64,000 bases of DNA from an uncultured Gammaproteobacteria bacterium (GTDB taxonomy: Bacteria > Pseudomonadota > Gammaproteobacteria > Pseudomonadales > Pseudohongiellaceae): positions 1 through 64,000 of the forward strand of contig CAJXUA010000014.1 of assembly GCA_913060695.1 (NCBI GenBank). The letters run 5' to 3'. A program made the position numbers and the translations under genes. The notes below the pieces were generated by a model. That model saw nothing but the letters and a program-made list of their open reading frames with translations, ran no database searches and was not told where the DNA came from. Of the stretch, positions 46,003 to 46,499 are shown in pieces (within the stretch, counting starts at the first letter, position 1; every line of letters begins with the position of its first letter).

Positions 46003-46287
46003 TTAGGGCCTCGGTAGTTTCAATAGGGTTTGGGGTAACAACCGGCGAGCCTAGAAGCCGAAGAGAGGATCAATTCCCAAGACATTCTAATTTCGCACAC
46101 CAAGACTATTGCAGTAGCCGTGCCAACTTTTTATTTCTATAAATATCAATAAGTTAATGTTTTTTAAGGGTAGGCATCGCATGAAAAGGCTGCACTAGAA
46201 AAATGCACGACGTTCGATAACTGTGCATATAGGTAACATTTTGTGGGGAGAAAGGTAGCAAATCTGCGGTTAATTTGAGGCAATAAA

Positions 46288-46309
46288 AAAGGGAGCTTGC
46301 GCTCCCTTT
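46288..46309 (-). terminator. Intrinsic terminator of the tiny gene
   Basis: AAAGGGAGC (46288-46296) and GCTCCCTTT (46301-46309) pair over nine bases with a four-base loop. Read on the minus strand, the stem is followed by TTTTTTATTG, a good T tract, 51 bases after the stop of the 23-codon gene. On the plus strand the tail is weak. Confidence 0.85.
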
Positions 46310-46359
46310 CCGTGATCGCGGGCCCAAACGGAACCTTTGCATTCACAAAGCAGTGTGTC

Positions 46360-46431
46360 TCACCCTAAGAAGGTCATCCCTTGGGTTCCTACTACACCAA
46401 AGTCCGTTGAAGCCTGATTACCACTCGACAT
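46360..46431 (-). CDS. Tiny 23-residue protein or peptide
   Basis: A 23-codon gene that I do not recognise. The peptide starts MSSGNQASTD, is rich in Gly, Ser and Thr, and ends GTQGMTFLG. Evidence that it is real: AAGGAGGTGATCC, the complete complement of the 16S rRNA tail, lies directly before the ATG with ideal spacing. A TTGACA -35 and TACTCT -10 with a 17-base spacer lie upstream, and an intrinsic terminator closes the transcript after a short 3' region. It is divergent from the phosphatidyltransferase gene. It could be a peptide precursor, a small membrane-surface protein or the coding part of a dual-function RNA. It has no strong hydrophobic segment. Confidence 0.7.
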   Translation of the reverse strand: MSSGNQASTDFGVVGTQGMTFLG

Positions 46432-46432
46432 T

Positions 46433-46446
46433 GGATCACCTCCTTT
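46433..46446 (-). promoter_or_regulatory. Full-length Shine-Dalgarno sequence
   Basis: Minus strand AAGGAGGTGATCC is complementary to the 3' end of 16S rRNA over its whole anti-SD tail, far longer than the 4-6 bases used by other genes here. The plus strand therefore mimics the 16S 3' end (GGATCACCTCCTT), but the flanking bases do not resemble rRNA. Confidence 0.8.
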
Positions 46447-46470
46447 TTATATATCAGTTGAAGAGTCTTG

Positions 46471-46499
46471 AGAGTACGCAGGGCAATATGTGCTGTCAA
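46471..46499 (-). promoter_or_regulatory. Sigma-70 promoter of the tiny gene
   Basis: On the minus strand, TTGACA (46499-46494) is a perfect -35 hexamer. After exactly 17 bases, TACTCT (46476-46471) is a moderate -10. The leader to the Shine-Dalgarno would be about 20 bases. Confidence 0.65.

Follow-up and report, generated by a model that had tools for sequence, protein, structure and literature searches.

The minus strand of the window (the whole stretch of 64,000 nucleotides that was analysed) carries at 46285-46463 a locus that we read as encoding a structured, free-standing small RNA, about 180 nt in length, on which the translation of a short reading frame would act as a switch. We assign this RNA to a gammaproteobacterial branch of a family of which Rfam CC2171 is the part described so far, and give the joint reading (small RNA gene, family branch and translation switch) a probability of about 0.5. 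Comparison of the copies shows a start, frame, length and stop that appear to be selected and an amino-acid sequence that is not kept, which suggests that the act of translating the frame, and not the peptide, may be what matters. An earlier note on this DNA had described a whole transcription unit for a 23-residue peptide, with a ribosome site of unmatched strength. The signals are indeed in place and the frame is conserved; what the note overlooked is that distant parts of the RNA pair with each other and that a known sRNA family matches the locus.

Expression signals of the putative small RNA gene

The features of the locus are collected in Table 1. The promoter had been called perfect, and this holds for the -35 hexamer alone; the -10 hexamer, 17 nt further on, is weak, agreeing with TATAAT at only 3 of 6 positions. 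Among 74 representative copies of the element, TTGACA lies upstream in 13 (1.1 expected from resampled sequence) and TTGAC in 18 (4.2 expected), and an identical TACTCT is found upstream of the same-family copies L003, L004, L005, L010, L011, L012 and L016. A simple promoter and terminator scan of the window listed neither the sRNA promoter nor its terminator. Despite this, the intrinsic terminator that the earlier note had placed after the 23 codons (hairpin 46311-46286) is clear in the computed fold of the whole RNA, whose minimum free energy (MFE) is -57.4 compared to -48.5 (sd 3.9) for shuffled sequences (z -2.29; 4 of 200 shuffles equally good). In copies picked by their Shine-Dalgarno (SD) sequence alone, a terminator occurs at the family distance in 43 of 48, against 0.2 at control positions.

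Table 1. Features of the putative small RNA gene, in window positions.
Feature	Position	Strand	Evidence
-35 hexamer TTGACA	46494..46499	minus	sequence; upstream motif count in representatives
-10 hexamer TACTCT	46471..46476	minus	sequence; 17-nt spacer after -35
5′ leader TTCAACTGA, conserved	46454..46462	minus	alignment A1; partner-swap tests
Shine-Dalgarno core AAGGAGGTGATCC, 13 nt	46445-46433	minus	sequence
Extended Shine-Dalgarno AAGGAGGTGATCCAA, 15 nt, includes the A of ATG	46431..46445	minus	16S-tail complementarity
Open frame, ATG 46431-46429, 23 codons (MSSGNQASTDFGVVGTQGMTFLG), TGA 46362-46360	46360..46431	minus	
P1 5′ strand GTGGT (codons 3-4)	46420..46424	minus	fold; A1 pair counts
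P1 3′ strand ATCAC, directly ahead of the terminator	46312..46316	minus	fold; A1 pair counts
P2 5′ strand GGCTTCAACGGA (codons 6-10)	46403..46414	minus	A1 pair counts; fold; partner swap
P2 3′ strand TCCGTTTGGGCC	46321..46332	minus	A1 pair counts; fold
Inner hairpin, mostly the frame's second half; stop codon at its 3′ side	46352..46398	minus	fold
Second inner hairpin, 3′ of the stop codon	46335..46350	minus	fold
Intrinsic terminator: 11-bp stem, GCAA loop, T run	46286..46311	minus	sequence, A1, fold

The ribosome site had been described as unmatched elsewhere in the window, and its 13-nt core occurs only once in the whole 3,730,043-base assembly; the site itself extends to 15 nt, longer than claimed. 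As the 3′ end of a 16S gene would match the 13-mer too, the draft assembly seems to be without one. The extended site is what we take to be the complement of the usual gammaproteobacterial 16S 3′ tail, which may not be the tail of the host, and its duplex with such a tail, typed in, has a predicted energy of -28.7 kcal/mol; two ordinary sites entered alongside it reach about half as much. The string at 46431-46445 is presumably also the start of a universal 16S reverse primer, and such primers could prime here as well.

The pattern AGGAGGTGATCCARTG was present in 48 of 398 genomes sampled across the phylum, at one place in 45 of them and at two in 3, and in 8 of 369 genomes of the class. The reversed control pattern gave 0 matches in both samples, and the SD pattern is therefore not a product of chance; individual matches can be, since 3 of the 30 loci fetched from the phylum-wide matches resemble chance, as do six matches of the class sample, in which stem and terminator were found only in the window's own copy and in L171. 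A search with AAAGGAGGTGATCC uses the SD alone, so that the start codon was not selected for. Carried out in two orders, around G715 and around G786, it matched 42 of 61 and 26 of 61 genomes, respectively (control 0), and 58 of the 85 places were fetched and read. Ten of these are the 16S gene itself, on the opposite strand. In all 48 non-16S copies, a start codon follows exactly one base after AAAGGAGGTGATCC (GTG in 36, ATG in 12). In the representatives, the SD is predicted to be barely more accessible than in resampled context (0.376 compared to 0.329), and it is slightly more open in 50 of the 74 (p 0.002).

Selection on the reading frame

The 74 representatives derive from 163 deduplicated elements, of which 92 passed terminator and stem criteria that ignored the frame and 74 were kept at below 80% identity; 70 of these, with 18-35 codons, made up the folding map. 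The 92-copy set, which lies behind the frame, first swap, accessibility and pairing-map counts, was picked partly by a match in the stem P1. A stem-independent set was also assembled from 211 sequences, 151 of them with a terminator and 99 retained at below 75% identity. The selection rules dropped some real members, among them L007, several Caulobacter-like copies and most copies with the peptide KRCHLAGIAR. The 16-mer matches L169, L170, L172, L173, L175, L176, L189, L204 and L205, which have no terminator and a long open flank, were set aside as well and are probably sites inside coding genes.

Stop codons within codons 6-18 occur in frame in 2 of the 74 representatives, compared to 35 and 25 in the other two frames and to 25.9 (sd 3.8) expected, and the frame is 20-29 codons long in 66 of 74, against 15% in simulated sequences; the representatives share ancestry, and the counts are thus not independent. 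The depletion is also seen without the stem criterion (6 of 99 in frame vs 47 and 24) and, for codons 6-17, in the set picked by the SD alone (2 of 48 vs 15 and 12). The encoded residues show no such constraint. Over 35 disjoint pairs of copies, pN/pS, a ratio that RNA structure influences too, is 0.95, with changes spread evenly over the codon positions (121, 109 and 111 at positions 1, 2 and 3). Over 12 pairs from a lineage fixed at 18 codons, in which three near-duplicate sequences each enter two pairs, it is 1.13. Within the genus of the window, L002 and L003 differ by 0 synonymous and 2 non-synonymous changes, and L004 and L005 by 2 and 1. Residues 3-5 differ among lineages (MSS, MSH, MSK, MSN), and across the 74 representatives we found neither a common residue beyond position 2 nor a conserved run of regulatory codons. 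The conservation of the codons in relatives, on which the idea of a peptide had been made to depend, is hence a conservation of start, frame, length and stop, and not of the codons themselves.

The frame has taken another course in Azospirillum (L032, L038, L041, L054, L055, L105, L106 and L136), where it is 57-59 codons long and signal-peptide-like. There, pN/pS is 0-0.47 in 11 overlapping pairs, which points to purifying selection and demonstrates that the measure is able to detect constraint. In this genus, a protein gene has apparently been born from the sRNA. In a plasmid collection, 12 Azospirillum records match the stretch of L055.

Predicted folding of the RNA

In alignment A1, the 27 named pairs of the proposed structure are formed in 91.9% of cases, compared to 41.8-66.2% for slid controls, the structure having been derived from A1 itself. 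Double changes occur in 11 pairs and in 23 cells, against 10.7 cells after shuffling. The long-range stem P2, which joins codons 6-10 to the 3′ domain, is well supported: 6 of its 12 pairs have changes on both sides, and 91.6% of its cells are paired. In a partner swap that involved no stem selection, codons 7-14 favoured their own 3′ domain, with a mean z of -1.5 and a place in the best 5% in 38 of 99 representatives, where about 5 are expected. An earlier swap on codons 2-13, with copies partly picked by P1, gave a mean z of -1.6 and 26 of 70 in the best 5%.

The closing stem P1 is weakly supported, by the folds and by examples selected for P1. Its cells are paired in 92.3% of cases in A1, with a double change in one pair; single P1 stems are mostly not significant, and the partner swap of the P1 region (codons 2-6) placed 7 of 99 in the best 5%, near chance. 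Both strands differ between lineages in the examples GTGAT/ATCAC, GTGAGAT/ATCTCAC, GAATTG/CAGTTC, TCATTGTC/GACAATGG and CATGGA/TCCATG, all of which come from copies selected for such a match. By eye, the 3′ domain also seemed an attractive partner for the SD or the 5′ leader, but such pairing failed the partner swaps and was rejected: neither element showed a preference for its own 3′ domain (5 of 99 in the best 5% for each; mean z 0.0 for the leader). The exception is a lineage with the motif CACCTCC, described below.

In 58 of the 74 representatives, the pairing of codons 3-13 exceeds that in resampled context. In the 70 folds, the 3′ domain is the partner of 50-67% of the bases of codons 4 and 7-14 and of 32-41% of those of codons 3, 5 and 6; codons 16-28 pair mainly inside the frame and leave a loop near codon 21. 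Of 210 stop-codon bases, 117 have a partner within the frame and 72 are unpaired. The long-range stem and the inner hairpin thus lie over the frame, and a ribosome that reaches the stop would open both. The MFE is below that of resampled context in 74 of 74 representatives, which is partly built in, terminators having been required for selection.

Relationship to CC2171 and distribution

At the gathering thresholds, Rfam returned nothing in the window and, in 20 loci, no match to the element. The two matches obtained there are riboswitches elsewhere in the loci (FMN at L033:5129-5280 and SAM-I/IV at L049:4434-4540), with no sign of a link to the sRNA. Searched by E-value, a 401-base stretch around the element matched a single model, RF01867 (CC2171), at 30.5 bits and E 8e-5, over the full length of the model (positions 1-159 of 159), and in the window's own genome the element is the only match to this model at E ≤ 1 (E 1.8e-4). 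The score lies below the curated gathering score of 75 bits. The same holds in the related genomes, where 23 of 57 have a match at E ≤ 1 and 0 of 57 pass the cut-off. In 14 named control genomes, 6 match and 1, presumably that of Caulobacter, is above the cut-off, so that weak matches also arise by chance. All of eight further loci (six titled Alphaproteobacteria, two others) match RF01867 at 28.9-46.3 bits, and since unrelated microRNA models reach 43 bits elsewhere in L094, such sub-threshold scores alone are no proof. We therefore regard the element as a probable distant relative of CC2171 and do not file it as a member.

A BLASTN search of 57 related genomes with a 191-base query gave matches in 18, some to the terminator only. 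The relatives have two conserved blocks, the SD with the first ~13 codons and the segment ahead of the terminator, which are separated by a variable middle and are mutually complementary. In genome contigs, AAGGAGGTGATCCAATGTC occurs in at least 118 stretches, where about 2 would be expected by an estimate from the collection size. Among the matches listed, 89 of 118 stretches are alphaproteobacterial by title, and the titles include Azospirillum, Devosia, Rhizobium, Agrobacterium, Hyphomonas, Ruegeria, Altererythrobacter and others. Metagenome-assembled genomes titled Rhodoferax (L143) and Klebsiella pneumoniae (L053) also carry the element; the former title is probably wrong, L143 apparently belonging to the window's taxonomic family. 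Ten stretches in viral contigs match the 19-mer. Of the seven looked at, L207, L211 and L213 resemble copies of cellular genomes and L209, L210, L212 and L214 resemble other genes; nothing among them indicates a viral link, and a viral origin was discarded.

A covariance model, R1, was built from 13 gammaproteobacterial copies. It gives strong matches (E ≤ 3e-13; next match 8e-5) in 35 of 109 genomes of the taxonomic family, 12 of which supplied sequences to the model and 23 of which are new. The strong matches cover 5 of the 8 genera of the family. In the window's own genus 4 of 14 genomes have one, and the other 10 are without the element at the sensitivity of R1 used. R1 also matches 73 of 73 alphaproteobacterial loci tested, which were drawn from the listed 118 and preselected for the SD 19-mer; matches of ~38 nt over the SD alone score 17-28.5 bits and only the excess counts, and 62 of the 73 score above 28.5 bits.

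Copies of the G715 order (L247-L276) have exactly 18 codons in 24 of 24 non-16S copies read, and L056 (Ruegeria) and L206 resemble them. In this 18-codon lineage, the anti-SD motif CACCTCC stands in the 3′ part, ahead of the terminator, in 17 of 24 copies, compared to 1 of 24 other copies and 3 of the 74 representatives; it is absent from the 3′ part of the window copy. This suggests that opening of the RNA may free an anti-SD in the 18-codon lineage. A 14-codon version with the near-invariant peptide KRCHLAGIAR is found in large genomes, probably of Bradyrhizobium (L195-L202, L213, L302 and L303, with L207 as a variant), and is the one case in which a short peptide looks conserved. L006 (G023) and L012 (G027) have roughly 80-150 extra nt, placed in the middle domain and between the 3′ arm and the terminator, respectively, with the conserved blocks still recognisable. 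L017 (G025) keeps the SD and start, has no terminator by the rule used and a weak R1 score (46 bits), and is possibly a decaying copy.

Neighbouring genes

In the window, a divergent gene for a CDP-alcohol phosphatidyltransferase adjoins the sRNA, and a gene for a small TonB_C protein starts on the same strand ~284 nt past the terminator. Among the loci compared, the first neighbour is common to 4 same-genus loci only and the second to 3 same-genus loci only. The proposed link to the phosphatidyltransferase pathway, whether through a peptide precursor or through a regulator, is thus not supported by these loci and was rejected. No neighbour is common to the whole family in these loci, the flanking genes varying by lineage and lying on either strand, and hence the sRNA is considered free-standing. 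The largest shared downstream cluster is a class IV aminotransferase (11 entries from 7 distinct loci: L010, L011, L012, L006, L137, L143 and L110; Pfam check for L010 and L110); by title or placement, six of these loci are close to the window's family, and L110 is alphaproteobacterial. The seven neighbours tested at 42.0-51.4 kb (TPR, cytochrome b561, TonB_C, CDP-OH_P_transf, LPG_synthase_TM, amidohydrolase and PTPS) include no modification or export genes of the kind looked for with a RiPP or peptide signal.

Translation as a proposed switch

On these patterns, we propose an RNA switch that is unfolded by the translating ribosome. Recruitment of 30S subunits by the SD would be close to the limit that base pairing sets, and the first ribosome would have to open the stable stem beside it. 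As the short frame is translated, the long-range stem would melt together with the inner hairpin and the 3′ arm would be freed, giving the RNA two states, a folded one when untranslated and an opened one when translated. Such an RNA would read out ribosome supply or initiation capacity and not any given amino acid. The freed 3′ arm might pair with targets, the stability of the RNA might change, or the bound ribosome itself might be the effector. We count against the switch the weak P1, the slight SD accessibility, the KRCHLAGIAR lineage and the 10 of 14 own-genus genomes without the element. We also count against it that Caulobacter ncRNAs are, in the available part of the report, mostly intergenic and such regions not translated, two earlier ncRNAs being translated (Schrader et al. 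2014, PMC4117421). A wider version is tentative, and we think it possible at best: translation would be the signal in a widespread proteobacterial RNA family that gauges the pool of free 30S subunits, or the capacity for initiation, and feeds the result back on gene expression. Ribosomes would here expose the 3′ arm and, in the 18-codon lineage, its internal anti-SD CACCTCC.

The near-maximal complementarity to the 16S tail, kept across two classes, the duplex energy of about twice that of two ordinary sites and the free peptide sequence would also suit a ribosome decoy, in which the best of initiation sites beside a stable stem holds 30S subunits and buffers or reports their free pool, as 6S RNA does for RNA polymerase, and in which the frame merely lets bound ribosomes leave in order. 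We hold this to be unlikely, since the RNA would need to be very abundant and a decoy alone does not account for a frame of near-fixed length whose stop lies at the inner hairpin. An ordinary trans-acting, base-pairing sRNA would agree with the filing of the related family in Rfam as 'Gene; sRNA' and with a free-standing unit with promoter-like and terminator signals; its SD and frame would be incidental or only protect the RNA. A start codon in 48 of 48 copies and the depletion of in-frame stops are not expected of an incidental frame, however, and no shared target-binding motif was found, CACCTCC being essentially that of one lineage (17 of 24), which makes this reading quite unlikely.

A small-protein mRNA or peptide precursor, with a peptide that itself acts, was disfavoured already by pN/pS of about 1 in 47 disjoint pairs, the two own-genus pairs included, by the variation of residues 3-5 between lineages and by the lack of modification enzymes among the seven neighbours tested. 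We judge it very unlikely, even though the expression signals are complete, the frame is selected and the Azospirillum frame is now a constrained, secreted-looking protein of 57-59 aa. The layout of short frame, stems and terminator is also that of a cis-acting leader or attenuator of a neighbouring gene, and some lineages have a common downstream gene, class IV aminotransferases being the largest group. Such a role is hardly credible for an RNA with no family-wide downstream gene, with a next gene that is often on the other strand (~284 nt past the terminator for the next same-strand gene of the window) and with a strong terminator separate from the stems.

It seems that the uncharacterised Caulobacter sRNA family CC2171 is the described portion of a much wider group, which spans the Alphaproteobacteria and parts of the Gammaproteobacteria and has a ribosome site of nearly maximal strength built in. 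Where a frame is kept without its peptide, being translated is clearly not the same as encoding a functional peptide, a distinction that matters for the interpretation of short frames found by ribosome profiling. It also makes testable the question of whether bacteria have an RNA sensor of free 30S subunits.

Comparison with known systems

RF01867 (CC2171), a Caulobacter sRNA, reportedly goes back to Landt et al. 2008. Its Rfam consensus has the same order of elements as the window copy, with a CAAC leader, GAAAGGAGGUGAUCCA, a start triplet, stems and a terminator-like hairpin; the window copy differs in having ATG instead of GUG and other stem sequences. CC2171 is named in Rfam 15 (PMC11701678) and also listed for Mesorhizobium huakuii (PMC5596092), and neither the Rfam entry nor the accessible parts of these two papers describe a translated frame for it. 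The sRNA family is therefore known, and what would be added here is a sequence-free frame of nearly fixed length, of which we found no description in the openly licensed PMC literature, where we found no function for the CC2171 family either.

SgrS/SgrT is a dual-function sRNA. Spot 42 with its protein and rnTrpL/peTrpL are further cases, according to the part of the literature seen (PMC10117765). What the window family shares with these is a short frame on a small RNA, one that may be translated here; it differs in that an active peptide is made there, whereas the sequence is not conserved here; pN/pS of 0.95 and 1.13 does not indicate a conserved functional peptide. In leader-peptide attenuators such as trpL and ermCL, as would be the case here, the movement of the ribosome over a short frame chooses between RNA folds. 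The window family, in contrast, has its own terminator, no family-wide downstream gene and no conserved regulatory codons.

Cuckoo RNAs are anti-SD sRNAs. So are SisA-D of Caulobacter, as far as the accessible text goes (PMC12559287). Complementarity between SD and anti-SD is in play in all of them, but these RNAs carry the anti-SD, whereas the window family carries the SD, with an internal CACCTCC mainly in the 18-codon lineage. In Staphylococcus aureus, the available part of a report describes extended, start-proximal SD sites (PMC13009471), in which, as in the window, pairing reaches towards the start codon; those appear to be initiation sites of genes generally, whereas here the extended site would belong to one specific structured RNA.
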